From contig NZ_JAUYFU010000048.1 of NCBI RefSeq assembly GCF_030689645.1, positions 248,001 to 312,000 on the forward strand: a stretch of DNA of 64,000 bases. Direction: 5' to 3'. The stretch is from Humidesulfovibrio sp. Its GTDB lineage: Bacteria; Desulfobacterota; Desulfovibrionia; Desulfovibrionales; Desulfovibrionaceae. Made by a program: the position numbers and the translations under genes. Within the stretch, counting starts at the first letter, position 1. Every line of letters starts with the position of its first letter. Shown piece by piece: positions 45,791-61,247 of this stretch. The notes under the pieces are model-generated. The model worked only from the letters and a program-made list of their open reading frames with translations, did no database searches and was not told where the DNA came from.

Positions 45791-45818
45791 GGGTCATGCC
45801 ACGGCATGGCCCTTTTTT
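45791..45818 (+). terminator. Intrinsic terminator after tRNA-Arg
   Basis: A 10-bp stem GGGTCATGCC/GGCATGGCCC (one G-U pair) with a tight loop, followed by six T. Confidence 0.88.
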
Positions 45819-45861
45819 GTTTCTGCCGCACAGCCAGTATTCTTCAACTCCGGGAGCCCCC

Positions 45862-46398
45862 ATGCTGAAACGCACTCTCCCCCTCTTGCTGCCACTTGGC
45901 CTGGCCTTGTTCCTGAGCGGCTGCGGCCTTGCCACGCACTTCGGCAGCCCCGCAGGCCTCCAGGCAGCTCTCAAACCCACCAAGGGCAATCAGGCCAGCG
46001 GGCTCATGACCTTTCGCCAACAGGGAAATGAGGTGCTGATCCAAGGCACCTTCTCCGGTCTTACGCCAGGCGCCCACGGCCTGCATATCCACGAGGGAGG
46101 CGACTGCGGTGGCTCCGCCGCAAGAAATGCGGGCGGCCACTTCAATCCAACCGGCGCACGCCACGGCAGCCCGGCCAGCCCCTCGCACCATCTGGGCGAC
46201 CTGCCCATGCTCACCGCAGGCCAAAACGGCTCTGCACGCTTCCAGGCACGCATGCCCGGCTTGACGCTGGACAACGCGCCCACAGGCATTCGGGGGCGCA
46301 CTGTCATCGTCACGGAACGGCCAGACGACTTCACAACCCAACCCACCGGAAACTCCGGCCCGGCAGTGTCCTGCGGCGTTATCAGGCCTGAGCCTTAA
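45862..46398 (+). CDS. sodC: Cu/Zn superoxide dismutase, lipoprotein
   Basis: A 178-residue envelope enzyme converting superoxide to O2 and H2O2. The signal ends in the lipobox LSGC (Cys near 20). Metal ligands are visible: HIHEGGDC (two copper His), GGHFNPTGARHG and HHLGDLP (zinc and bridging His/Asp). The disulfide partners lie in GDCGG and VSCGV. Start: ATG at 45862, with GGGAG 8 bases upstream; the earlier in-frame ATG lies in the tRNA terminator. It is convergent with the chemoreceptor gene; a weak AAAAGCC/GGCTCTTTT dyad at 46410-46443 may separate them. Confidence 0.93.
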   Translation: MLKRTLPLLLPLGLALFLSGCGLATHFGSPAGLQAALKPTKGNQASGLMTFRQQGNEVLIQGTFSGLTPGAHGLHIHEGGDCGGSAARNAGGHFNPTGARHGSPASPSHHLGDLPMLTAGQNGSARFQARMPGLTLDNAPTGIRGRTVIVTERPDDFTTQPTGNSGPAVSCGVIRPEP

Positions 46399-46463: not shown

Positions 46464-48221
46464 TCAGGCCAGGAGCTTCACCCCTATGGCCCGTCCAAGG
46501 TTAACATCGACCCCAAGCACTCCCGCCAACTCACCCGTTTGCGTCATGATGGGAGCTGATACGGTGATGCAGTTCTCGTTTGTGGCGCTCGACACATAGA
46601 CCTCGCTCACAGCCATGCTTCGCGTTTCAGCGGGCTGCCGGAACCAATCCCTGTTCGACCAGTCGCGCCCATAGGCGCTTGCATCGGCGCTGATGCCTCC
46701 TGGCCCGCGCCCGATGTTCGACACCACTTGCAACCCCCTGGCATCGGTCAGATACACCAGCTCAAGTGCCTCATTCTGACTCAGGGACTGGCGCATGGCC
46801 GTCTCCTGTTCAGCGCGCTGCGAAGAGCGCACACGCGGATCCGATGCCAGGCCTTCAACAATCCCCTGGACAGTGCCGCTGCCGATGAGCTGAAACACCG
46901 CATTCATCGATTCGAGTTCAACGACCCGGCCAAGCAGCCCAGCCACGGATTCAATCGCCCCCTGCGCCCCAGCGTAGCTCTGTTCGGAAATGGTGCGTAC
47001 CTGCCGCACGATGTCGCTGATGCGACCACTTGTGTCGGCCTGCTTGTCGGCCGCATCGGCCATGTCGCGGATATGCTGCGCAGTATCTCCGGCAAGCAGC
47101 ACGATCTCGCGCAGGGAAGCGCCGGAACCCTGGGCCAAGTCCACTGCACAATTCACCCGACTGGCCGTCTCCTCCATGTCGCGCTCCGTGCGCTCTACTC
47201 CCTGCTGAATGCCGAGGGTCCGTTGCGCCACCTCTCGCGTAGCGTTCATGGTCTTCTCGGCCAGCTTGCGCACCTCATCCGCCACGACAGCGAAGCCCCT
47301 ACCTGCATCGCCAGCACGGGCTGCCTCAATGGCGGCGTTCAACGCCAGAAGGTTGGTCTGGTCGGCGATGTCTGAAATGACGTCCATGATCTTTTCGACT
47401 GCCAGGGCCTGTCTTCCAAGATCGCGCACAACTGATGCAAGATCCTGAGCCTTCTGCTCCACAGACCGTATGGCGGAAACAGTCTCGTCAACCGCCACTG
47501 AGCCGCTGCGCGCCTTGTCCTGCGCAGTCTGCGCCTGATCCACGGCGCCAGAGGACCGCAACAACATCTGTCGCACTGCGTCATCAAGCTGGTCCATGGA
47601 ACTTGCCGCGTCCTGCATGAGGCGTTGCTGACGCTGTGCACCGGATCCGCTGGACTCAGAAAGAGTGCGAAGCTCTTCACATGAGGAATGGATCCCGCCA
47701 ATAGCCACCCCAAGAGTTTTGGATGCCGAAATGAGGCCCTCGCGACGTGACGTCTCCGCACGTTCACGAGCAATCACAGCCTCAGAGCACGCGGCCCTCG
47801 CAGCCTTTGTCTCCAGATCAAGCTGAACTTGAAGATCCGCCTCGCGTTGACGTAAATCCAAACATTCACTTACAATATTGTTTATTTGCTGTGATAACTC
47901 AACAAATATGTCGCCATCAACAAGAATCGGTGATTCCTTTTTCGTAGAACCTAAAATTGCAACAGAAGTTGCACAACCGATGCTATCAGCCATATAATTA
48001 CGGACAGTTACGCGCATACGCACAGTAATACACAGACTGACAAGAACCATGAGTATGGCAAGAATTCTTCCATACTCCAGGCTATACTTTTGCAAATTCG
48101 TCAGATTATTCATCTCAGAAGTGAACGCTGGCATACCCGGAATGGCTGCGAGCACCCCGACAACCAAAAGGCTAAGCGCCGAGATAATTAATGTATAAAC
48201 CAAGCATGCTCGTGACGTCAT
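46464..48221 (-). CDS. Methyl-accepting chemotaxis protein with C-terminal Cache-like domain
   Basis: A 585-residue receptor. Two N-terminal membrane helices (~7-28 and ~50-68) enclose a periplasmic loop of only ~20 residues. A coiled coil leads to the signalling hairpin ([20 protein letters not shown]). The last ~140 residues, after the hairpin returns, resemble a Cache/PDC sensor ([59 protein letters not shown]). That domain is normally periplasmic and N-terminal; here topology puts it in the cytoplasm. A sigma-54-like promoter precedes the gene. Confidence 0.88.
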
Positions 48222-48415: not shown

Positions 48416-51400
48416 ATGCCTGACACCAAGCCCAGCAAGATACTAAAGCCACGCTCATTCAGGGTGTTGCGCCGCTCCGCGTTGGCCTTGGCATGTTTAC
48501 TCAGCTTGTCCATACTGTTCATCCTTGTCCTGCCGGTCGTTGTTTCATCAGACTGGGCGCGCGGGCACATTGAACAGTATATGACCAAAACCACTGGAAA
48601 AAGAGCAAGCCTCGGCAGCCTCTCATTCAGCTGGCGCCAGGGGCTGCACATCAAGGCCCTGGGCATAGGACATGGCCAGCTTTCAGACGAGAGTTTCCTT
48701 GTGGCGCTCGACGACCTGCACGCCGATTTCAGCCTCCTCGCAGCCCTGCGCAAGGACGTACGGCTTATACTTTCGCTGAAAGGCCTGCGTCTGCGCCTGC
48801 CCTACTCCGATTCCGCGACAGTGCCCGAACCACCGGCAAAACCCCTCTCCGATGCACTGCGAGGGCTCTTCGCCGTCCTGCGTTCAATCAGCGCGCCCAT
48901 ACCCCAAAACCTCGATGCGCATGCAACAATCGACATGACGGACATGGCTGTGCTCCTGGCGCCTCCCCCAGGCGGCAAACCTCTGGAATTGCGCGACGCA
49001 TCATTCAAGGCTGAGGTTCAAGGGATCAAAACCAACCCCCTGACCATCGATGCGGGCGCGAACCTCGTCATAGAGGACAGAATGCTGACGCCGCTCGTTT
49101 TTTCCGCCAAGCTGGAAGGTTTGACTGACCCGGCGGGGCGAATGAGCCCGGCCCAGGCCCACCTTACGGCAAAGTTCACGGCCCCAGGCCTGGACTTGAA
49201 CGCTGGCGGCAGCCTGGCAAAAAGCATCAAAGTCGATCTCCGCGCACGCCCAGGCGAGGTTCTGGACGCCGTGCGCCCCCTGGCCGCTCGCCCTTTGCTA
49301 ACTGTGGGCGGAGCCTTGGCCCTGGCGCTGACCCTGGCCCAGACCGCGCCGGACAGGCTGGACCTCGGCCTGGTATTCTTCGCCGACAGCTTGCACGCCG
49401 CAAATGGTCAACTTGGCGACAAGTCAGTTGGCCCCATCAGCCTGAGCCTGCTGCAAGAAGCCGCGCTGGACCTTAAGGCCGAGACTGTGCGTTTTCCTGG
49501 GCAGTTGGACCTCAAGGCCACCAGTCGGAACTCAAACCCGGTCCGCTGGGTGGGCGAGCTTTCCGGGATAGCGGAAGGAAATCCGCGCGCGACCCTTGCC
49601 ATAGCCCAGGTGCATATTGTCCTGAGCGAGCTTCTGCCTGCCGTGCGCGCGTTTCTGCCGCCAGGGCTGACCCTTGGCCAAACCAGCCTCAACCTCGAAG
49701 GCCTTGCTTTAGCCGCAACGCTTCCCAATGAAGGACGCAAACCAGACATGGAGGCTCGGTTCAAGGGTCTGGAACTCTCTGCCGCAAGGCTCCGCCGCAG
49801 CGACGCGTCAGGAAAGCAGGACATCGGCCACGCCATCCTGCGCGTGGGCTCCGCAAACCTGAGCCTGCCCGGCGCAGGGCCGGGACTGGCCGAGGTCAGC
49901 CTTTCCGCCGAAATCGACGACATCCGCATCGGCGGCCCCATGCCGCTCAGCGTGCGCCAGTTCAGCCTGCCCCGCGTGAGCCTTCGCATGGACAACCTAG
50001 CCCAGGACGCTCAGGCGCTTTTCGGCATAACCGGCAAGGCGCTTCTGGAGCTTGACGCCCAGGCCATGGACATCGAGGCCAGAGGCAAGGCCTCCATCCC
50101 GCTCCTCATCGAGACCACACGCCTGCATGCGGACTTTCCAGCGTCAAAGTCCGCCAGCCTGAACCTTGAAAAGATGCATCTTGACGTTCCCCTGATGCGC
50201 GTGCTCCAGCCGGGCAAAAAAACTCTGGAAACACCGTTGAACCTGCACGCAAGCGCGCCGGGCATAGTCCTCTCCGGTCCGGGCACGGCTCCCGCCCTGC
50301 GCGGCATGAAGCTTGACCTCAGCTTGGGAAAAGCCCTGCGCCTCCAGGCCACCACGAGCCTGGACGGCCCTGCCGGGCGCGACTTGCGGACTGAAGGCGC
50401 ATTGACTCTGAATGCGCAGCACCTGATGGCCCTGGCCTCGACCTACGCACCGCGCCAAGCCAAGGCTTCCGGCGAACTTTCAGTAGACTGGAAACTGGCC
50501 GCGACCCTGCCGGCGCCCCCACCAGGAGCCAAGGGCAAACCCGGAGCGCCCAAAAAACTCTCGCAGACTCTCAATGATTTGAGCTTCCTGCACGAGGTCG
50601 AGGCAGTCCTCAGGCTCGACAGCCTGAGCCTGGACTGGCCCTTGGCGGCAGCGGCGGGACAGTCCTCCGAGACCTTGCGCCTGCGCGGGTTCACCACACC
50701 CAGGGCGCTGCGTCTGTCGTCCCGCGACGGCGTCGCCCAAGCCAGCCTCACGGGAACTCTGGCCTTCGGCCCCATGGACACCCTGCCGGGCGCAGGCAGG
50801 CTGACCAAACCCTTGCGCGGCCTTCTGACCGTCAACGCCACGCAGCAAGGCGCGCGCTCTGTGCAATTCTCCCAGGCGCTGCGCCTGGAAGGGCTGGATC
50901 TGGACCAGAGTCTTTCGCTGATGCTGGACAAGCTGGACACGGTTCTGGACCGCGACACCGACAGGATGGCCGCGGTGCTCGAAGGCGTCGACGCCAGCTT
51001 CTCCTTCAATGTGGTTGCCGGCCTGAATGCACTGGGCTCAAGCGCTGCTGCCCAAGGGCTGTCTGGAAAAGGCCGCATGGAAGCAGGGGCCGAAGCGCGA
51101 CTGACTGGAGGGCGAAGCCTGGCCCTGTCCGCCCGTCTTTTGAGTCCCGGTCTTGACATGCGCCTGAGTCCGGACTTGGCCGTGAACGGCCTCGTCAGCT
51201 CCCTCCGCTTCAACCACCGCTACAGCATCACTCCCGGTCTGCGCTGCGGCGGCGAATCCGAGGCGGTCCTTGCCCCCCTGTCCGAGCAGGTCTTCGATCT
51301 GTATCCGGCGCAAGGCATTGCTCGACCCGCTCCGGGAAACGCTGCCCTGGGCCAACTTCTGCGCACCGACGACGCGCGTGGGGCAGGAGGCTCCCTCAGC

Positions 51401-52120
51401 CTGGCGCAACTCAAACTAAAGTCCGCCGGGCTGCCGCTGGACATCCGCGACGTGCACGCTGTTCTGGACGACTCCGGCCCGGTGCCGAGTCTTCGCTCCT
51501 TCAGGGCCGGGCTGCTCGGCGGCAACATCCTGGGCAGCGCCATGCTGCGCAAGAGCGCCGGGCGGTATTCCATGGACGCCGATCTGGCCTTCACCGGCAT
51601 CGACACCGGACGACTGCTGCCTGAAAAATCTGCCCGCGACATGGGTACCCAGGCCGAAGCTTCGGGCCGGGTGAGCCTGTCCGTTCCGCTGACCCCGGCC
51701 CCGGAAGATCTGCTTCAGCGCCTCACATTCCGGGCGGACATCACAAAGATCGGGCCACGCACCCTTGAGCGCATGCTCTACGCCCTGGACCCGAACGAGC
51801 AGAACGAGACCATCGTACAGCAGCGCCGGCTCATGGGCATGGGCTTCCCGCGTCACCTGCGCATGGCCGCAGCCTACGGCAACCTGTCCCTTTCAGGTGC
51901 GGTGGAGGTGAAGGGCTTCCAGCTCGACCTGCCGCCGGTGGACCGCCTATCCATCGCCAACCTGCCTCTGAAGAAGCAGCTCGCCAAGCCGCTGGCCGCT
52001 GTGCCAGGGCTCATCAAGGTTTTGGACGCAGCCTCTGGAACTCGCATATGTCTCGATCCCGCAGCCGCCCCTGGCACGCTTCGCGTCGTGCAACCAACCA
52101 GCCAAGGAGCATCGCAATGA
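48416..52120 (+). CDS. AsmA-like envelope protein related to YdbH
   Basis: A 1234-residue protein with one N-terminal membrane helix (ALALACLLSLSILFILVLPVVV), the rest periplasmic and rich in short beta strands, as in the AsmA/TamB/YhdP/YdbH clan. The start resembles AsmA proteins (DWARGHIEQYMTKTTGKRASLGSLSFSW), and the C-terminal ~200 residues carry a dicarboxylate-transport-like conserved end (ALYALDPNEQNETIVQQRRLM). E. coli YdbH forms an inner-to-outer-membrane lipid conduit with YnbE, controlled by YdbL; the next gene matches those partners, which supports a YdbH identity. E. coli YdbH is ~880 residues, so this one is long. GGAG is 6 bases before the ATG. Confidence 0.82.
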   Translation: MPDTKPSKILKPRSFRVLRRSALALACLLSLSILFILVLPVVVSSDWARGHIEQYMTKTTGKRASLGSLSFSWRQGLHIKALGIGHGQLSDESFLVALDDLHADFSLLAALRKDVRLILSLKGLRLRLPYSDSATVPEPPAKPLSDALRGLFAVLRSISAPIPQNLDAHATIDMTDMAVLLAPPPGGKPLELRDASFKAEVQGIKTNPLTIDAGANLVIEDRMLTPLVFSAKLEGLTDPAGRMSPAQAHLTAKFTAPGLDLNAGGSLAKSIKVDLRARPGEVLDAVRPLAARPLLTVGGALALALTLAQTAPDRLDLGLVFFADSLHAANGQLGDKSVGPISLSLLQEAALDLKAETVRFPGQLDLKATSRNSNPVRWVGELSGIAEGNPRATLAIAQVHIVLSELLPAVRAFLPPGLTLGQTSLNLEGLALAATLPNEGRKPDMEARFKGLELSAARLRRSDASGKQDIGHAILRVGSANLSLPGAGPGLAEVSLSAEIDDIRIGGPMPLSVRQFSLPRVSLRMDNLAQDAQALFGITGKALLELDAQAMDIEARGKASIPLLIETTRLHADFPASKSASLNLEKMHLDVPLMRVLQPGKKTLETPLNLHASAPGIVLSGPGTAPALRGMKLDLSLGKALRLQATTSLDGPAGRDLRTEGALTLNAQHLMALASTYAPRQAKASGELSVDWKLAATLPAPPPGAKGKPGAPKKLSQTLNDLSFLHEVEAVLRLDSLSLDWPLAAAAGQSSETLRLRGFTTPRALRLSSRDGVAQASLTGTLAFGPMDTLPGAGRLTKPLRGLLTVNATQQGARSVQFSQALRLEGLDLDQSLSLMLDKLDTVLDRDTDRMAAVLEGVDASFSFNVVAGLNALGSSAAAQGLSGKGRMEAGAEARLTGGRSLALSARLLSPGLDMRLSPDLAVNGLVSSLRFNHRYSITPGLRCGGESEAVLAPLSEQVFDLYPAQGIARPAPGNAALGQLLRTDDARGAGGSLSLAQLKLKSAGLPLDIRDVHAVLDDSGPVPSLRSFRAGLLGGNILGSAMLRKSAGRYSMDADLAFTGIDTGRLLPEKSARDMGTQAEASGRVSLSVPLTPAPEDLLQRLTFRADITKIGPRTLERMLYALDPNEQNETIVQQRRLMGMGFPRHLRMAAAYGNLSLSGAVEVKGFQLDLPPVDRLSIANLPLKKQLAKPLAAVPGLIKVLDAASGTRICLDPAAAPGTLRVVQPTSQGASQ

Positions 52121-52707
52121 AACGCCTTCCCGCAGCAGCAGTCTGCCTGGCCCTGACCCTTTCCGGGTGTACCCTGGCCGAAGTGAAGGTCAACGTGGCC
52201 AGCGAGCGCACCTCACTTGAAAACCAGATTCTCGGCTCTTACAATTCGCTGTCTGAAGAGACGCTGCTGGTGGCCTCGGTGCGCGGCGTGGACCCCCTCG
52301 GACGCATCCAGACCCCGCCGAAGAAGAGCCAGGAGCAACAGGACGCGATTGCCGCCATGCAGGTGCTCTCCTTCCACGCTGATGACGTGGAGTCGTTCAA
52401 ACGCCTTGGCTGGGTGGGTGAGGACAACAAGGGCCTGCTGACGCCCTTTGGCTTGGCCCGCGACAAGACCCCAGACGACCTGAAGGACTTCGCCGCGCGC
52501 TTCCGCCAGCAGGAGTTCGACAGCGTGCTCAGGGAGGTCAACGCCGCGCGCGAGGTCATCATGCGCCGGGCCATTGAGACCAACGCGAGCCTGACTCCAG
52601 CCGATCTGCCCAAGGTTCAAGCCGTATTCGCCAAGCTCGCCGCCGACACCTCGCGCCCAGGCGACAAGCTTCAAGCCTCCGACGGCAACTGGACGGTGAA
52701 GAGATGA
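52117..52707 (+). CDS. YnbE/YdbL-like lipoprotein (DUF1318)
   Basis: A 196-residue outer-membrane-type lipoprotein: signal ending in LSGC (Cys near 18), then CTLAEVKVNVASE, which resembles the short lipoprotein YnbE. The C-terminal ~75 residues (VNAAREVIMRRAIETNASL to ASDGNWTVKR) match YdbL/DUF1318. It therefore looks like the two E. coli partners joined in one chain. The start ATG overlaps the upstream TGA (ATGA), with AAGGAG 7 bases before; the longer frame inside the upstream gene is rejected. Its own TGA overlaps the next start in the same way. Confidence 0.82.
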   Translation: MKRLPAAAVCLALTLSGCTLAEVKVNVASERTSLENQILGSYNSLSEETLLVASVRGVDPLGRIQTPPKKSQEQQDAIAAMQVLSFHADDVESFKRLGWVGEDNKGLLTPFGLARDKTPDDLKDFAARFRQQEFDSVLREVNAAREVIMRRAIETNASLTPADLPKVQAVFAKLAADTSRPGDKLQASDGNWTVKR

Positions 52708-55700
52708 ACGCGCATCGCCTGCGGCAATTCCTCGCCTGGGCGCTGCTTTCGGCCAGCCTGCTGCCTGGCCCCGTTTTCGCTGCTCCCACAGCCAAGTCCG
52801 CACCCCCGGCAGATGATATTTCAGCCCAAAGTGTTTCCGCCCAGAAGCTGGCTGCCGAGGCTCTGCGGCCAAGCGCCAAACGCGCCGCGCCCCGCCGTCT
52901 CGACGTGAATTTTCCCGTGCAGGCCAGCTTCGAGACCGGCGCTGTGCAGCAGGCAGACATCACCCCGGACGGCAAGTGGCTGGCCCTGGCCCGTCTTTCC
53001 GGCGGGTACAGCGAGCTTTGGCTGCGCTCGTTGGACCCAGGGCTTTCCATGCTGCCTCGGCGACTGGCCCCGGCGCTGGCCGACCGGCTTTCCCCGGCCC
53101 TCTCGCCCGATGGTAAACGCCTGGCCTTCGTGGGCATGGAGGACGACGTCAAGGGCGACATTTACGTGCTGGATCTGAACCGCGCTGACGCTACACCGCA
53201 GAAGCTCACGGGGCGCGACACCGAGGACGGAGCGCCCGTGTTCTCGCCCGATGCCCGCACCCTCTACTTCCACCAGCGGCTGCCCGGCGAAACCGTCCGG
53301 CGCATCGCTGCCCTTGATTTGAGCGCGCCCGCATCCCTGCGGGTCATCCAAACCGGCGGCGACGCCTACGCCCCCGCCCTTTCGCCCGACGGCAAACGCA
53401 TGGCCTTCGTCTCCAACCGCGAGGGCCGTCAAGACGCAAGCGCCGTATACCTCATGGACCTGCCCGCAGGGCTCCCGGCGCGCCTCACCACTGGCCGCAC
53501 CAGCGAATCCATGCCGCGCTTCACCCCAGACGGCGCCAGCGTTCTTTTCGTCAGTTCGCCCTTCACTTCAGAACAAAGCACTTTTGCAGAAGCCACAAAG
53601 CTCCTCGCGCCGGTTATTGCCAGCGCACCAGCCCAGCCAGGTTCCGCCCCTCAGCCCCTTACCTCTGCCAAGAATGCCGACCTCGCCCCCCTTATGGCCG
53701 GAGGCAGGCTGTATTACCTGTCCGCCCAGACCGGTCCGATAAACCTGTGGTCATTGCCTGCGGAGGGCGAGATCCCCAACCGCCCGTCTGAGGAACTGCT
53801 TGGCTTGGCCGATACCCTGGCCAACCAATTGCCTGTGAACCGCCACCTGACCATCCTGGCCTATGGCCGCTCCGCCCAGACAGCAGGGGCAGCCGCGCAT
53901 CTGGCTGCGGTGGCGCTGTATTCCCAGGGCCGCCAGTACGAGGCCCTGTCCCTCGAAGCCAAAGCCCTGGAAGCCCATGAGTCCGCAGTGAAGCTGGCAA
54001 TGCAGCCGCATTCCGGTTTTGCACAGGTGCGGGCCATATTGCTCAAGGCCAAGGCCGAACGCCGTCTGGCCGCCAATGACAAGGGCAGGCGGGCGTCGCT
54101 GCAAAACGCCCTCAAGGCTCTGGCGGGGCTCATGGCGTCAGACCCGCGCGTGCTCTGCCAAGCTGGCATCGAGCAGGCGCGGCTTCTCCTTGAACTGGGA
54201 GGCGACTCGCGCTCCCTCACCGAGGCCCTGCGCCTGCTGGACATACAGATGGCCCCACAGGGCCAGAGCCCAGAGCAATTCGCCGAGGCCCTATTCCTTA
54301 AGGCTGAGACCTTCGCCCGCATCGGCCAGATCCAGACCGTGCTGCCGCTGTACGCCCAGGTCATCCGCCAATACCCGGAGGATGGCCCCTGGGCCGACCT
54401 GGCGGTGTCGCGCGTGCTGGATCAGAGCCTTTCCGGCGCAGGCAGGAAGCATGAGGACCAGGCACAAGCCCTGGTGCTATTGGCCGAGCAGCACCGCAAG
54501 GACCTGCTCAAGCTCTCGCTAGGCGCACAAAACCGCCTGGGCGACGTGTATTACGCTGCCGACGAATGGGCAAAGGCAAAGGACGCCTACCGTCAATCCA
54601 TCGACTCTGCCCGCGAGGCCCCGCAAGTGGCCACACAACTGGCCGCTGCGCGCCTGGCCCTGGCTGAGATCCTGTACCGGGAGGAACGCTTCCACCAAGC
54701 GCTGGACCTCTATGAAACGGAAATGGCAGCTCGGCCCTTTGAGGACCGCCTGTACCGGCTGGCCAAAACCGCGCATTTACGAAAGTCCATAGCCGCAGGT
54801 GACTACCTGCTGCGCATCGGCGAGGTGCCGTCGGCCCGGGCCATCTTCGCCGGACTGCTGCGCGACGACCCGGACTGCGTGCCCGCCCACAGGGGCATGA
54901 TACGCGCCAGCTCCGCCCTCAAGACCATCCCCGCTACCTTGGCCGAGTATCGGCAGCAGCTCGCCGCCAAACCCGGCGACGCCACCCTGCTCTACGCCAC
55001 GGGCCTGACCATGACCTATCTGGACGGCAAGGGGCAGCTTCTTGAGGCGCGCAAGCTCATCAGCCAGGCGATCCTGAAGAACGGCCAGGTGGAGTACTTC
55101 CATCAGACTCTGGGGTATGTCGACGAGGTGCTGGAGACCGTGCACAAGGAGCGCGGACGGCTTGAGTCGGCCCTTGAGTCCTATCAGCGCGCACGGTTCT
55201 TGAACTCCCGGGAGCAGAACCCGGAGAACGCCGCAAACCTGGACCTGAACATCGGCAACATCCACTTCCTGCTGGGCCAGTACGCCAACGCCTTCGAGGA
55301 ATACACCAAGCGCTTCGACTCCAAGGTTCCCTTTGACAACGAGGAGACGGAGATCCTTTTCTACCAGCGCTTCGGCGCCTCGGCCTTCCAGGCGCGGGAA
55401 CCGGATAAGCCTATCCTGGCCTATTCCAAATCCCTGGAGCTGGTTGAGCGGCGCATCCAGCCCAAGTACGCCTCCGAGGTCTTCGGGCGCATCAACAAGT
55501 TCGTTTTCGACCGCGTGCTCACTCCGGCTCTGGGCCGCGCCGAGGTTGCCGACAAGGCGAAGGCTTTAGCCACGCGTCAAAGCGAGCTGAACAACAGGCT
55601 TTTCGAGGCCAGCATCAAACCCGCCGGGCCACCGCCCGATCCCACATGGAACACTTACGTCTCCGCCGTGCAGTCCCTTCTGTCCGAACAGGAGCGCATC

Positions 55701-58700
55701 ATCGCGGAACTGCCCCCGCTTCTGCGTGATGACCGCGAAGCCAGCATGCAGACTCTGGCCGTCATGGCGACCAAGGTGCGCGAGGCCCTGGCCTTCCCCC
55801 CGCGCTTCGTGGAGCTGCGCTCGGAGTTGCACGACCGCCTGGGCCTGGCCTATCAGGAGGCCGGGCGCTGGCGCGAGGCGCGCGAAGCCTTCGAAAAAGC
55901 TCTGGCGATGAACACGGCCCTTGGGCTGACCCGCAACCTTGCGGCCAACCAGCGCTCGGTTTCCTACAACGCCTTCATGGAGGCCGGGCTCACCACCGGA
56001 CAGGACCGCGACCGGCTGCTGGAACAGGCCGAAGCAGGCTTCCGGCGCATCCCGGAGCTGCTGGACAAGTACGGCGTTGCCGACAAGAAGAGCGGCGGCC
56101 GCATGAAGGGCCTCATCAATCTGGACATCGACGTAGCGCTGGACAAGGGCGCGGCTTCCCAGGCTTCGTACGGCTTCAGCATCGAGCAGGAAAAGCGCCT
56201 GGCCGAGACATTCCTGGCGCGCATCGCCACAGAGCGCGGCCGGCCGCGCGAGGCCCTCAGCCTCGTGGAGCGACAGTCGCGAAGCTTTGAAAAGGGCGCA
56301 GTGGCCATGCAGGATGCCTTCGGAGCCGCGCTCCTGCTGCACCGCGCCGGACTGCTGGAGACCTCCCTTGGACGCGAGGCCGCGGCCTTCGAGCGCTTCC
56401 GCCGCTCGGCTGAACTGGCCCTTGAACTGGGCAATCCGATGAGCGCCTCCCTCAACGTGGTCGATATGGCGGGTGCGCTTCTGACCCTGCCGCAAACAAG
56501 CGGCGACTTCGCCGCGCGCTTGGCCGAACTGCGCCGCCTGGAAGACCGAACGGCAAACTCCCTGCGCAACGCCCCCCCTGGAGCGGATTCCCTTGCCGCC
56601 GCGGCCTTCCACAACATCATGGCCGCCACGAACATGGCCCTGGCTGACCGCCTTGCCGCCGCAAGCGCCGATGCCGCAGCCCTGCGCATGGACTGCCTTT
56701 CCCGTGCGGGTCAGCGTGTGGCCGATGGCCTGTCCTGGTTCGCCGCGCATGAGCCCGTCACCCGCCGCGCCCTGGCTCTCAATGCCGCGCTGAGGCTCAA
56801 CGAAGCCCAGCTGGCACTGCGCCTAGGCGAGGACGCCCACCGCATCCAGAGCCTCAACGCGGCCCTGGCTCTGGCGGAACGCGGCCTGCTTCCAGCGCAA
56901 CGCTGGCGCGCGCTCGCCGGGCTGGGCCGCCTCAAGGAGGCCCTGGCCGTGGTCGAAGCCCTGCCCGTGGATGAGCTGGCCTGCGGTGCTGGCGAAATCA
57001 TGAACACCTTCACGCCGCTGGTTGCTTCCCTCGTCGACGCCAAGAGGGCCGAGGATGCCTACAACCTGCTGGAGCGCCTGTCGGAACTTGAGCGCGTGGG
57101 CCGCATGGGGCGGCTTGGCGTACCCAGTCCAACTACCGCAGAACTGGGGCTCCTGCGCCGCAGCGGCGCACGCCTGCTGGTCATCCGCGATCTCAAGGCT
57201 CGCATTGCCCTCGCCAAGGATCAGGAGCGCCTGGATCTGTCGCGCCGCCTGGACCAGGAAGAGGATATATTGAAGCGCGACCTGGGCTCGGAACGCGAGT
57301 ATCTGCCCGGAGTGGCGCGTCTGGGCGCAAGCCCGGCGGAACAGGACTGGCTGACGACACTCTTCGGCCTAGCGGCAGAACTCTCCGCCACGGCAGACAT
57401 GGCCGTTGTCGCGGGCGATGACCCTGTCGGCATGGCAACGCGCAAGCGTCATGCCGAGCTTGCCGCCCGCTTGGCGGCGCTCAAGGCCGAAGCAGCAAAG
57501 ACCCTGGGCAGGCAGGACGCCCCGGGCGCGCTGGGGCTCGTTCTCGCCGCGCCCACAGAGGCCATGGACCTCATGGATGTGCTGCCCAAGGGCGCGAACG
57601 CCCTGCGCGTGGCCTTGCTGCCGGGCGCAAGATGGATCGGCTTCCGGCTGGACTCCGACTCCGTGCAGATCATGGCCCTGGGCAACGGCCCGCAACCAGC
57701 GCTGCCGCCCTTGGCCCCAGGCGAGAAGCGCCTGCTGCTCTACGAGGAGCCGTCCGCACTCGCCCGTCAGGATGCAGCGAGCTCACTCGCCGTTGGCCTC
57801 TCCGGCACGCACATGAAGCGCAGTCTGGCCGCCCGCAAGCCCTTCCGCAAGAATGTGCTGTTCGTTTCCGGGGCCTTCGCCGCGCCCAAGGCTTTTGAAT
57901 CTGCGCAGGCAGGCATAGCTCTTCCGTCCCTGCCGGAGATGACTGCGGCAACGCACACATTCGTGGCCTCGGACCCCGTCCGCGCCGTCCAGACCGCACC
58001 CAGCCGCCAGGACCAGTTGCCCGTGCGCTTCCTGGCCCTGGCACCAACCAAAAACGAGCCAGTGGCTCTGCCTAGCCTGGCTGCGCGCATGCAGGACGCG
58101 TCCCTGGCGGTGCTGGCCCAAGCCGAGCCCCAGGACCTGCCACTCATCGCTCACCTGCTGTCACTTTATGGCGTTCCCACTGTACTGGCTTCACAAGCCC
58201 CCGCCGCAAAGGCCTTTATCGAGCCCTTCCTGACAGCCTATGCAGACGCAGCGGCTTCTGGGGCCAAGGCCGCTGCCCAAGGCGGGGCGCAGGCTTCCTG
58301 GCTGCTGTTAGGCGATCCGGGCCTTACAGCGCAGGAGGCAGGTGTTTTTGCCGCAACCCAGTTCGCCCGCTATGTGCGCACGGGCATGGACGCCTTCAAG
58401 GCGGGCAAGAGCGCCCAGGCGCTTGCGCTGTTCGAGAACGCCCTGCGCGTTGCCAGACCATCCGACCAGTTCAAGAAGCACCTGCCAGACCTCTTGGCCT
58501 ATGGGCGGGAAAGCGCCTACGGGGCCGAGCAGTTCGACAAGTCTCTGGCCTTTGCCCAGGAGCTGACCCTGATGCTGGCCAAAACCCAGCCCGACACCCC
58601 GGCCCAGGCCGAAGCGCTCATGCGCCTGGGGCTGGTGCACGCCCGCCTGGAGCAATACGCCAAGGCCATCCCGGCGCTGGAGCAGGCTGCGGAGATCCTG

Positions 58701-61202
58701 GCCAACCTGGAGCTTGCGCCCAGGGAAATCGAGGCCCTGTCCAGCCTGGGCGCTGTGCTGGAAAACGCCATCCAGTACGACAAGGCCCTGGCCCACTTCG
58801 AAGGCGCGGCCAAGCTGTCCAGAAAGGCGGGTTCGCAGGAACTGGTGGCCAAGCAATACATGAGCATTGGCCGCATCCACGACCTGCGCCTCTCGCAATA
58901 CGCCCAGGCCAAGGCAGCCTACGGCCAAGGCCTCGCCATCTACACGGCCCTCAATCGCAGGGCCGACATGGCTCAGGCCCTGCTCGACATTGGCCGCTGC
59001 GCCCGGCTCATCGGCAACTTCCCTGAGGCCGAGGCCAAGTACTCCGAAGCGCTCAAGCTGGCCGGAACCGCAAAGGACCAGGAGCGTCTGCGCCTGCGCA
59101 TCATCATTGAGCAGGCCAACAACGCCTGGTTCCAGGCCCGGTTCCAGCAAGCCTTCGACTTGCAGCGCCAAGTGCTTAAAAGCGCGGAGCTGAACGGCTG
59201 GGTGCTGGAGCAGGTCATCGCCCGCAACACCGCCGGGCTTTTGTGGTGGAGCCTGGGCGACCACGACCGCGCCGTGCGCGAGCTTGACGCAGCCCTGCCT
59301 CTGGCCAAGTCCTTGCGCATCCGCAAAGACGAGGTGGCCACCACCCTGAACAACCGAGGTCTGGTGGAGCGCGATATGGGCCAGCCGGAAAAGGCTCTTA
59401 AGACCCTGAACGAAGCGCTTGTCATCGACCGCGAGATCCGATCACGCTGGGCCATTGCCTACGATCTGCGCAACATCGCGCAAACCTACACGCGCATGGG
59501 CGATTCCAAGAAGGCCCTGCCCCTGCTCGATGAAGCCCTCGCCATCGTGGCAAGCACGGGCAACCGCATCAACCAGACCAAGATATTGCTGGCCCAGGGC
59601 GAGGGGCACCTGTCCCTGGGCGAAGCCGACAAGGCCCGCGCCGCCTTTGCCCAAGCCGACGAGCTCTCCCGCTCCATGGGCCTGAGAGACAGCCAGTGGC
59701 GCGCCCTGCATGGCCTCGCACGTCTCGATATCGCCGCACGGAAACAGCCCGAGGCCCGCGCCCTGCTGGAAAAGGCCGTGGGGGTCATCGAGGGCATGCG
59801 CGCCGAACTCAAGGTGGACCAGCTGAAGGATGGCTTCATCGCCGACAAGGCCGTGGTCTACGAGGATCTGGTGACGCTCCTGGCCGACATGGGCGAGGTG
59901 GCCGAGAGCTTCCGCACGGCTGAGCGCTCCCGCGCCCGCAACCTCATCGACCTCCTGGGCAACAAGCGCCGGGCTCCGCAGCGCGCCCAGGACAAGGCGC
60001 TGTATGACCGCATCGCCTCTCTGCGCACCCAGCTCTCCGAGCAGGAGTCGCTGCTGGCCCACGCCCAGGCGCAAAGCGAGCGCGAGATCTACGCCCGGGG
60101 CGTCAAGCGGATGCAGGACGAGCACCGCGACGTGCTGCTGGAACTCCAGGCCAGCCGCCCGGACATCGCCAGCCTGGTTTCCGTAAACCCGCTGAACCTG
60201 GCCGAGGTGCAGAAGCTGCTGGAGCCCGGCGTTGGGCTCCTGACCTACTACGTCACCGCCAACGAAGTGCTCTGCTGGTCCGTGGACAAGGAGCGCGTGG
60301 AGCTGACGCGCACACGCATCGGGCGGGAGAGCCTGGGCAAGATGGTGCTGACCTACCGGCGCATGCTCCAGAACCTTGAGCCTGCGGAAACCCACTCCAA
60401 GGAGTTGTATGCCCTGCTGGTGGCCCCGGCCCTGCCCAAGCTCGCGGGTGTGAAGGAACTGGGCATCATCCCCCACGACTCCCTGCACACGCTCTCCTTC
60501 GCCAGCCTGACCAACGGAGCCGACTACCTGCTGGACAGCTACCCGCTGTTCCAGCTGCCCAGCGCCAGCGTCTTCCGGTTCACGCTCGAACGCCGCAAGA
60601 CCGAGCGCAACACGCGCGTGCTTGCCGTGGGCAACCCGGACCTGCAGGACCAGTCCCTTGAGCTCCCCTTTGCCGAACGAGAGGTGGGATCGCTGTCCTG
60701 GAATTATCCCAACATGACCGCGCTGACCCGCGACAAGGCCACCAAGAGCTGGATCACCGAACATATAGCTGAGTTCGGCATTATTCACCTGGCCGCCCAC
60801 GGCGAGTTCGACCCAGTGAATCCGCTCTTCTCAACCTTGAAGCTTACGGGGAGCAAGAAACAAGGCAGCGGCGATCTGGAGGCGGCGGAGATATTCGACC
60901 TCAAGATCACAGCGGATCTCATCGTGCTCTCGGCCTGCCAAACGGGTCTTGGCAAGGTCACCAGCGGCGACGAGGTGCAGGGCATGAACCAGGCGTTTCT
61001 GTACGCCGGAACGCACGCGCTCATCTCAAGCCTCTGGCGCGTGAGCGACATCTCCACAGCCATGCTCATGAAGCAGTTCTACCGGGAGTATCAGACCCGG
61101 CCCAAGGCCGAGAGCCTGCGCCGGGCCATGCTGCATGTGAAGACGCGCTTCCCGCATCCCGGATACTGGAGCGCCTTCACCCTGACGGGGGACTACAAGT
61201 AA
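52704..61202 (+). CDS. Giant exported TolB-TPR-CHAT protein
   Basis: A 2832-residue protein. A signal peptide (LAWALLSASLLPGPVFA) exports it. Residues ~70-370 form a TolB/WD40-like propeller with PD40 repeats (LSPDGKRLAFVG; FSPDARTLYFH; LSPDGKRMAFVS). Residues ~400-1600 are helical TPR-like repeats. Residues ~1615-1870 resemble a CHAT domain without catalytic residues. A second TPR array spans ~1885-2400, and an intact CHAT (caspase-like) domain covers ~2500-2832, with His2699 in HLAAHGEFD and Cys2745 in LSACQTGLG. ATGA coupling to the YdbL-like gene suggests a joint envelope role. A weak ribosome site supports dependence on upstream translation. The substrate is unknown. Confidence 0.9.
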   Translation: MNAHRLRQFLAWALLSASLLPGPVFAAPTAKSAPPADDISAQSVSAQKLAAEALRPSAKRAAPRRLDVNFPVQASFETGAVQQADITPDGKWLALARLSGGYSELWLRSLDPGLSMLPRRLAPALADRLSPALSPDGKRLAFVGMEDDVKGDIYVLDLNRADATPQKLTGRDTEDGAPVFSPDARTLYFHQRLPGETVRRIAALDLSAPASLRVIQTGGDAYAPALSPDGKRMAFVSNREGRQDASAVYLMDLPAGLPARLTTGRTSESMPRFTPDGASVLFVSSPFTSEQSTFAEATKLLAPVIASAPAQPGSAPQPLTSAKNADLAPLMAGGRLYYLSAQTGPINLWSLPAEGEIPNRPSEELLGLADTLANQLPVNRHLTILAYGRSAQTAGAAAHLAAVALYSQGRQYEALSLEAKALEAHESAVKLAMQPHSGFAQVRAILLKAKAERRLAANDKGRRASLQNALKALAGLMASDPRVLCQAGIEQARLLLELGGDSRSLTEALRLLDIQMAPQGQSPEQFAEALFLKAETFARIGQIQTVLPLYAQVIRQYPEDGPWADLAVSRVLDQSLSGAGRKHEDQAQALVLLAEQHRKDLLKLSLGAQNRLGDVYYAADEWAKAKDAYRQSIDSAREAPQVATQLAAARLALAEILYREERFHQALDLYETEMAARPFEDRLYRLAKTAHLRKSIAAGDYLLRIGEVPSARAIFAGLLRDDPDCVPAHRGMIRASSALKTIPATLAEYRQQLAAKPGDATLLYATGLTMTYLDGKGQLLEARKLISQAILKNGQVEYFHQTLGYVDEVLETVHKERGRLESALESYQRARFLNSREQNPENAANLDLNIGNIHFLLGQYANAFEEYTKRFDSKVPFDNEETEILFYQRFGASAFQAREPDKPILAYSKSLELVERRIQPKYASEVFGRINKFVFDRVLTPALGRAEVADKAKALATRQSELNNRLFEASIKPAGPPPDPTWNTYVSAVQSLLSEQERIIAELPPLLRDDREASMQTLAVMATKVREALAFPPRFVELRSELHDRLGLAYQEAGRWREAREAFEKALAMNTALGLTRNLAANQRSVSYNAFMEAGLTTGQDRDRLLEQAEAGFRRIPELLDKYGVADKKSGGRMKGLINLDIDVALDKGAASQASYGFSIEQEKRLAETFLARIATERGRPREALSLVERQSRSFEKGAVAMQDAFGAALLLHRAGLLETSLGREAAAFERFRRSAELALELGNPMSASLNVVDMAGALLTLPQTSGDFAARLAELRRLEDRTANSLRNAPPGADSLAAAAFHNIMAATNMALADRLAAASADAAALRMDCLSRAGQRVADGLSWFAAHEPVTRRALALNAALRLNEAQLALRLGEDAHRIQSLNAALALAERGLLPAQRWRALAGLGRLKEALAVVEALPVDELACGAGEIMNTFTPLVASLVDAKRAEDAYNLLERLSELERVGRMGRLGVPSPTTAELGLLRRSGARLLVIRDLKARIALAKDQERLDLSRRLDQEEDILKRDLGSEREYLPGVARLGASPAEQDWLTTLFGLAAELSATADMAVVAGDDPVGMATRKRHAELAARLAALKAEAAKTLGRQDAPGALGLVLAAPTEAMDLMDVLPKGANALRVALLPGARWIGFRLDSDSVQIMALGNGPQPALPPLAPGEKRLLLYEEPSALARQDAASSLAVGLSGTHMKRSLAARKPFRKNVLFVSGAFAAPKAFESAQAGIALPSLPEMTAATHTFVASDPVRAVQTAPSRQDQLPVRFLALAPTKNEPVALPSLAARMQDASLAVLAQAEPQDLPLIAHLLSLYGVPTVLASQAPAAKAFIEPFLTAYADAAASGAKAAAQGGAQASWLLLGDPGLTAQEAGVFAATQFARYVRTGMDAFKAGKSAQALALFENALRVARPSDQFKKHLPDLLAYGRESAYGAEQFDKSLAFAQELTLMLAKTQPDTPAQAEALMRLGLVHARLEQYAKAIPALEQAAEILANLELAPREIEALSSLGAVLENAIQYDKALAHFEGAAKLSRKAGSQELVAKQYMSIGRIHDLRLSQYAQAKAAYGQGLAIYTALNRRADMAQALLDIGRCARLIGNFPEAEAKYSEALKLAGTAKDQERLRLRIIIEQANNAWFQARFQQAFDLQRQVLKSAELNGWVLEQVIARNTAGLLWWSLGDHDRAVRELDAALPLAKSLRIRKDEVATTLNNRGLVERDMGQPEKALKTLNEALVIDREIRSRWAIAYDLRNIAQTYTRMGDSKKALPLLDEALAIVASTGNRINQTKILLAQGEGHLSLGEADKARAAFAQADELSRSMGLRDSQWRALHGLARLDIAARKQPEARALLEKAVGVIEGMRAELKVDQLKDGFIADKAVVYEDLVTLLADMGEVAESFRTAERSRARNLIDLLGNKRRAPQRAQDKALYDRIASLRTQLSEQESLLAHAQAQSEREIYARGVKRMQDEHRDVLLELQASRPDIASLVSVNPLNLAEVQKLLEPGVGLLTYYVTANEVLCWSVDKERVELTRTRIGRESLGKMVLTYRRMLQNLEPAETHSKELYALLVAPALPKLAGVKELGIIPHDSLHTLSFASLTNGADYLLDSYPLFQLPSASVFRFTLERRKTERNTRVLAVGNPDLQDQSLELPFAEREVGSLSWNYPNMTALTRDKATKSWITEHIAEFGIIHLAAHGEFDPVNPLFSTLKLTGSKKQGSGDLEAAEIFDLKITADLIVLSACQTGLGKVTSGDEVQGMNQAFLYAGTHALISSLWRVSDISTAMLMKQFYREYQTRPKAESLRRAMLHVKTRFPHPGYWSAFTLTGDYK

Positions 61203-61247
61203 AAAAAAACGCTGGCCCCGGACGATGGATGTCGTCCAGGGCCAGCG
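61201..61247 (-). terminator. Terminator of the rel gene, shared with the CHAT gene end
   Basis: On the minus strand a long stem (CGCTGGCCC, mismatch, TGGACGA-type inner arm, 6-base loop) is followed by nine T. It starts right at the stop codon of the convergent CHAT gene. Confidence 0.88.

Follow-up and report, generated by a model that had tools for sequence, protein, structure and literature searches.

We analysed a stretch of 64,000 nucleotides of contig NZ_JAUYFU010000048.1 (assembly GCF_030689645.1, positions 248,001-312,000 of the forward strand), here called the window, from Humidesulfovibrio sp., which the NCBI taxonomy places in the Desulfovibrionaceae of the Thermodesulfobacteriota and whose genome totals 3.19 Mb. 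The window contains a run of three genes on the plus strand, all verified as open reading frames (ORFs), that we named A (48416-52120), B (52117-52707) and C (52704-61202). Gene A encodes a protein of 1234 amino acids (aa) that is assigned, through the Pfam matches of its relatives, to the AsmA superfamily; B encodes a lipoprotein of 196 aa with a YdbL-like DUF1318 domain, and C an exported-looking protein of 2832 aa in which a propeller, a TPR array, a degenerate CHAT module, a second TPR array and a CHAT domain with intact catalytic-type residues follow each other. Two further genes are found downstream of C in relatives, D, encoding an exported-looking SH3 protein of ~165 aa, and E, encoding an M48 metalloprotease (PF01435). 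In the following, G000 is the window's own genome, and the other G and L numbers denote the genomes and loci compared.

The three genes are joined by short overlaps, as the initial annotation had stated. The stop codon of A and the start codon of B share the letters ATGA at 52117-52120, and the stop codon of B and the start codon of C share ATGA at 52704-52707, both on the plus strand and both read directly. The frame of B is open from 52048, and the start that yields its lipobox lies at 52117. With starts placed by alignment to those of the window, the 4-base overlap of A and B was found in 11/11 genus relatives and that of B and C in 10/10; in the wide set of loci the respective counts were 22/76 and 56/71. 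Chance does not explain the overlaps: A itself is no more than 45-56% identical, and yet both overlaps are retained in each genus relative read.

Co-inheritance of A to D is well supported by surveys at three scales. The nearest one covered 59 genomes, 15 from the genus (the window's own included), 20 from the family and 24 from the order, at thresholds (expect value, E) of 1e-5 for A, 1e-3 for B and 1e-30 for C. A and C were present in 15/15 genus genomes and B in 14/15, the single miss being the 86% complete genome G007, while none of the three exceeded its threshold in the family and order sample outside the genus. Among 297 genomes drawn evenly from the phylum, B had a strong match (E <1e-30) in 8 and A (E <1e-40) in 7; CHAT was found in 73, and frames of at least 2600 aa with this domain in only nine. 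These nine are the eight genomes with B plus G301, which holds A and in which A is cut by one contig end and C starts at a different one. B and C are contiguous in 7/9, and a tenth genome, G153, has a fragment of C at a contig end. The profile of D exceeded 150 bits in eight of the 297 genomes (G288, G120, G084, G342, G330, G301, G000 and G001), all of them among the nine with a long CHAT protein; in the ninth, G118, D reached 46 bits, within the range of 26 other weakly matching genomes (42-62 bits). The 150-bit line was drawn after the list had been seen, 35/297 genomes matching D at E 1e-10 and the best match outside the set reaching 62 bits. Because the genomes share ancestry, the figure of 3.3e-14 obtained in the analysis is descriptive and not a probability.

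When named genomes were scanned with the B family, 146 relatives came up, and the best 80 of them (12 from the window's genus) extended this picture far beyond close relatives. C lies directly downstream of B in 71 of the 78 loci that reach at least 500 bases past B (L130 and L152 were dropped), 12 of the 71 in the window's genus, and A lies upstream of B in 73 of the 75 loci with 1500 bases upstream, a position of up to ~3 kb being accepted and L134 and L181 being the exceptions. The frame-split L115 and L133 were counted as having C. As these loci were fetched via B, the adjacency of C holds given B; for the opposite inference, from a long CHAT protein to B, the basis is the nine phylum genomes. 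The initial annotation had named CHAT homologues lying mostly away from ydbH/ydbL genes as the outcome that would speak against it, and the opposite was observed. A search with C in the genomes of the seven loci without adjacency and of L133 and L181 found it in 9/9, in the case of G360 and G361 as pieces. L133 lies on a Desulfobacterales chromosome, where a 225-aa N-terminal piece of C (L133:10666-11343) follows B and longer pieces of C occur elsewhere in the genome. The hosts include Geomonas, Geobacter sp. OR-1, Desulfonema magnum (with C apart from A and B), strain NaphS2 and one metagenome-assembled genome labelled Nitrospirota; named Geomonas strains carry all five genes in one locus. 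In a tree of the last 1000 residues of C, the window's protein groups with its genus (100/100), and the attachment of this group is left open, so that transfer is neither shown nor excluded.

Genes D and E complete the module in many relatives. For their count we used 48 loci in which the frame of C exceeds 2000 aa without running off the locus and is followed by 700 further bases, a set that takes in L158 and L167 with frames cut short; D follows C in 33/48 and E in 36/48, fusions of D and E within the genus being counted under E. Such a fusion is the gene next to C in eight genus relatives (it matches both profiles, and Pfam was run on three). The metalloprotease motif HExxH is present in 32/38 E proteins from the 80 loci; of the other six, three are cut by the locus end and three are fusions. 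M48 proteins as such are common (in 10/14 control genomes). Next to C, the window species, L113 and L114 have no D-E gene, and a relA/spoT-like gene follows C in the window. A loss of E from the window species was considered and rejected, as its genome keeps a separate D-E pair on another contig (G000:C27). Separate D-E pairs elsewhere in the genome were seen in G000 and G001, and wherever D has left the operon (G000, G301, G330 and, as a second copy, G001), E follows it. The three-gene composition first proposed was correct for A, B and C and incomplete in that it lacked D and E, both of which lie outside the window, and the degenerate CHAT module of C.

Protein A has a single N-terminal membrane segment at about residues 17-45, as judged by eye, and the remainder is presumably periplasmic; its best conserved stretch within the genus spans residues ~1101-1200. 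Among 38 family members (37 relatives and the window's A), Pfam detects DUF748 in 19, AsmA in 14 and YhdP in 13 (E 0.01; best 1.3e-15), and the protein of L125, the one member shown in full, exceeds the AsmA cut-off with 33.7 against 29.8. The AsmA-like character claimed initially can thus be attributed in part to the family, with the placement of the window's own A, which had no match in NCBIfam, borrowed from its relatives. A missing AsmA-type match is weak evidence, because E. coli YdbH itself has no such Pfam match below 0.01. The narrower label of A as YdbH-like had to be given up: PF11739, which returned E. coli YdbH at E 3e-291 as positive control, is absent from the window's A, from a 12-row alignment (A1) and from a 38-row alignment (A8), and hhalign against E. 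coli YdbH gave probabilities of 0.3 (12-row A1) and 3.4 (59-row A6).

B consists of a signal peptide (residues 1-17), the lipid-attachment residue Cys18 within GCTLA (lipobox identified by eye), a strongly conserved segment at residues 19-62 and the DUF1318 domain at residues 88-195 (52378-52701, plus strand). The domain matches PF07027 with E 2.9e-7 and 31.4 bits (cut-off 27) and was found in 50/50 B proteins (E 0.01). By hhalign, B aligns with E. coli YdbL at probability 93 (E 3.1e-7), including the C-terminal PG...Q..G.W..K motif, and the solved YdbL chain 28oj is matched weakly (E 0.029). Of the combined designation YnbE/YdbL-like given to B, the YdbL half therefore stood and the YnbE half did not: there is no match to PF13617, which finds E. 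coli YnbE at 3e-16 as positive control, and the hhalign alignment with YnbE covers the signal peptide and lipobox only.

DUF1318 occurs in 75 of the 297 phylum genomes, and the single instance in the window genome is B. PF11739 was over its cut-off in 21/297 genomes and in 0/9 of those with a long CHAT protein (the match in G342 is below cut-off), and it gave no match in the window genome. We read 13 DUF1318 loci picked by hand. One, G174, reads as a true ydbH-ynbE-ydbL locus (YnbE recognized by eye), and in G285 a PF11739 protein adjoins the DUF1318 protein. In the other 11 (L229-L237, L240 and L241) a DUF1318 lipoprotein of a second kind lies directly behind a large protein; its mature sequence starts with CVT(V/I)N(I/V)YFP in 9/11 and CAIITVNVYFP in 2/11, and the large protein upstream has an AsmA-type Pfam match in three of ten scanned (L233, L240, L241) and none in seven. 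No match to C, D or E was obtained in any of the 13 loci (E 1e-5). G120, G330 and G342 carry this second kind of lipoprotein as well as B. The combination of a bridge-type and a DUF1318 protein therefore seems to be a recurrent one, of which the pair in the window would be a subtype tied to C, D and E.

Hydrophobic, signal-like N-termini were seen by eye, with no predictor used, in many of the 54 full-length C sequences. In the window, a TolB-like/PD40 beta-propeller takes up residues ~70-360 (52911-53783; PD40 E 2.3e-21), and the TolB profile TIGR02800 matches with E 3.9e-22 and 78.8 bits, far under its cut-off of 343. It is followed by a first helical/TPR array at residues ~520-1250 (54261-56453), detected by Pfam TPR models and containing a conserved block at 600-900, by a degenerate CHAT module at residues ~1400-1874 (56901-58325), detected by hhalign, and by a second array with Pfam TPR matches at residues ~1890-2330 (58371-59693), the borders of the propeller and of both arrays being placed by judgement. 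The C-terminal CHAT domain (60396-61193; all of these features on the plus strand) matches Pfam CHAT over residues 2565-2830 with E 7.4e-59 and 200 bits (cut-off 24). Its catalytic-type residues are His2699 in HGE (codon 60798-60800, plus strand) and Cys2745 in SACQTG (codon 60936-60938, plus strand). Both are invariant in the genus and present in 55 of 59 rows across several orders, that is, in all rows reaching the site; the four rows that stop short are L158 and 5' pieces of two frame-split loci, two from L115 and one from L167. The domain architecture and the intact His/Cys pair of the initial annotation were confirmed in this way.

The middle module of C is a duplicate of its C-terminal end: residues 1380-1885 align with 2330-2832 by hhalign at probability 98.1 (E 1e-13), and the stretch of the G118 protein that matches the degenerate module hits Pfam CHAT at 1.5e-17. 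A catalytic His/Cys pair was sought in the window's middle module at the matching places of this alignment and was not found. Along the 54 full-length sequences the C-terminal CHAT domain is the best conserved part of C, and few parts vary more than the middle module. In the PDB, the CHAT region has a single sequence match, to Csx29/Craspase (E 0.0031); against the NCBIfam Csx29 model C scored 49.7 bits, below the cut-off of 300. Four of 14 genus relatives (G002, G008, G012 and G013) have additional CHAT-type proteins, with frames of ~780-980 aa and 26-39% identity to the end of C. A further pair of long CHAT proteins, L110:2307-8186 (1959 aa, G209) and L111:3920-8857 (1645 aa, G258), is weakly similar to C, and the stretches read around them contain no match to A or B.

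This organization resembles the E. coli ydbH-ynbE-ydbL locus, an operon for a large bridge protein with genes for a lipoprotein and a DUF1318 protein behind it, in which ydbH and ynbE overlap by 4 bases and whose YdbL aligns with the DUF1318 domain of B. AsmA-superfamily proteins have been proposed as phospholipid carriers (PMC12977461, PMC11784454); YdbH interacts with the lipoprotein YnbE (PMC12977461), which acts with YdbH in phospholipid transport (PMC11784454), and a plasmid with the ydbH-ynbE-ydbL locus is described as suppressing a double-mutant defect. The window's locus departs from this arrangement in that A matches YdbH neither in Pfam nor by hhalign, in that a lipoprotein itself carrying DUF1318 takes the place of the separate YnbE, and in that no CHAT, SH3 or M48 gene is among the eight features read in the E. 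coli stretch. The 11 loci with the second kind of lipoprotein share the gene order of a large, partly AsmA/DUF748-type protein and a 'CVTVNIYFP' lipoprotein-DUF1318 gene with A-B, whereas their lipoprotein has another N-terminus and C, D and E have no match there. A further AsmA-like protein, GspN of type II secretion, works with lipoproteins and carries them to the cell surface, a transport that depends on a sorting motif following the lipobox (PMC12802150); we liken A to it by description and not by sequence. C shares with Csx29 and with eukaryotic separase the succession of a TPR or helical part and a caspase-like CHAT domain with a His/Cys dyad, and differs from Csx29 in being exported-looking and nearly four times longer and in having a TolB-like propeller and a second, degenerate CHAT module. 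BepA and LoiP are envelope metalloproteases of the M48 type. E resembles these M48 envelope enzymes in its Peptidase_M48 domain and HExxH motif and differs from them in its link or fusion to the SH3 protein, which has a conserved C-terminus of its own. Searches of open-licence full text, a scope outside which subscription papers and preprints fall, found nothing on a CHAT domain together with AsmA, TolB, M48 or Geobacter, or on AsmA-like proteins with DUF1318, and no title or abstract opening listed by broader searches describes such a system; the bridge is of a known kind, and the five-part composition appears to be undescribed within the literature searched.

The best reading of these data, which we put forward tentatively and as falling somewhat short of an even chance, is that A and B form a trans-envelope lipid bridge controlled by two proteases. 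A would have its anchor in the inner membrane and span the periplasm as a greasy groove, in the manner of AsmA-type bridges. B, which presumably sits in the outer membrane, would dock on the end of the groove via its conserved segment after the lipobox and could regulate the groove via its YdbL-like domain. We infer that the cargo is a lipid, most likely phospholipid. C would serve as a periplasmic scaffold and separase-like protease, possibly lipid-anchored in some relatives; its propeller and TPRs may sense the condition of the bridge or the outer membrane, a regulatory role would fall to the degenerate CHAT module, and the C-terminal CHAT domain, if active, would cleave an envelope target. 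D, which likely binds the cell wall through SH3, and E would make up a linked second arm for quality control or processing of the same target, and the direction of control would be from the proteases to the bridge. A more ambitious version, in which the five proteins are one envelope machine whose periplasmic separase-family protease, with its degenerate twin module, and metalloprotease gate or repair the lipid bridge, and in which bulk lipid flow to the outer membrane is under proteolytic control, is less probable, and we consider it somewhat unlikely.

Several observations weigh against a protease-controlled lipid bridge. The window's A has no sequence match to YdbH or, in a PDB search, to any solved structure, and its AsmA-type Pfam matches lie only below the cut-off (YhdP E 0.081, Glam1 E 0.047). 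In seven of the 78 loci (L134, L139, L140, L142, L146, L150 and L161) C is not beside B, and in G118 the operon is broken, with B and C on different contigs and an unrelated gene upstream of C. The copy of C in L158 (L158:10561-17493, 2310 aa) stops before the CHAT domain, and no CHAT sequence occurs in the remaining 1.2 kb of this locus, which ends at the contig end. HExxH is lost in three of the eight D-E fusions (L115, L116 and L118), so that the M48 activity of the fused copy is dispensable there. The cargo, finally, is left open by the precedent of GspN, an AsmA-like protein that moves lipoproteins and not phospholipids (PMC12802150).

This last point leads to the alternative that survives best, namely that lipoproteins or some other surface molecule travel along the A-B groove in a GspN-like manner and that C, with D and E, trims the cargo on arrival as a dedicated envelope processing protease. 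The sorting motif after the lipobox in the GspN system (PMC12802150), the strong conservation of B right after its lipobox and the two protease-type domains that travel with the bridge would all fit such a role. However, an all-against-all search of 296 flanking frames found no conserved cargo gene and, beyond A-E, only neighbours confined to particular groups, or families of response regulators and transporters whose position varies; the flanks stop soon after E, so that genes downstream of it are hardly sampled, and no search was aimed at secretion genes. On balance we regard lipoprotein export as unlikely.

Rather unlikely, too, is the possibility that C acts as a scaffold or sensor and that its CHAT domain does not work as a protease in vivo, which would make the module a structural tether between outer membrane and peptidoglycan with the M48 protein as its sole protease. 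The prevalence of binding modules (propeller, TPR, SH3), the degeneration already seen in one of the two CHAT modules and the absence of a CHAT end from the available L158 sequence are consistent with it, but the His/Cys pair is retained in every row that reaches the site, across several orders, and lies in the best conserved region of C. We consider it improbable that the operon is shared for the timing of expression only, with C, D and E acting on an envelope process separate from the bridge. The genomes in which the operon is split point both ways: C is apart from A-B in seven and D-E are apart in G000, G330 and G301, and yet each of these genomes keeps the parts tested, C in the seven without adjacency and D in the three others, whereas for genes of unrelated processes one would expect the association to dissolve in some genomes. 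Defence or programmed death, in which infection would prompt the CHAT protease to kill or arrest the cell by way of the envelope, is very improbable: CHAT proteases are present in type III-E systems of clustered regularly interspaced short palindromic repeats (CRISPR) and in gasdermin systems (PMC9729208), and C matches the PADLOC TPR model (2.9e-11) and, weakly and in part, BovA (2.2e-4), but PADLOC gave no support for a defence system, with no match for A, B, D or E (no search was aimed at nearby defence genes), C is present throughout the genus, and carriage on plasmids was rejected, as the plasmid collection contains no match to B at E 1e-5.

A lipid bridge under the control of two proteases would bear on how AsmA-type bridges assemble, open and stay intact, an open question for which the other factors of such complexes are described as not clear in PMC12977461. 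The module with its two protease-type partners is kept across many families, and its five-gene locus in Geomonas makes the question testable by genetics. If the reading is true, C would be a CHAT, separase-like protease of the envelope, outside the CRISPR and cell-death settings treated in PMC9729208, where the TPR-CHAT protein Csx29 is described as a regulated, separase-like protease.

Concerning the surroundings of the three genes, a sigma-70-like promoter was sought upstream of A and none was found. A 16-bp hairpin at 61210-61247, with its T-tract on the minus strand, lies between C and the convergent relA/spoT-like gene. Upstream of A, the window contains a frame for an exported protein of the copper/zinc superoxide-dismutase type (45796-46398, plus strand) and one for a chemotaxis receptor (46464-48221, minus strand), the three neighbouring genes being named by eye. 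Look-alikes of the dismutase-type and receptor frames were found upstream of A in five and eight of the 80 loci, respectively, all but one in the window's genus.

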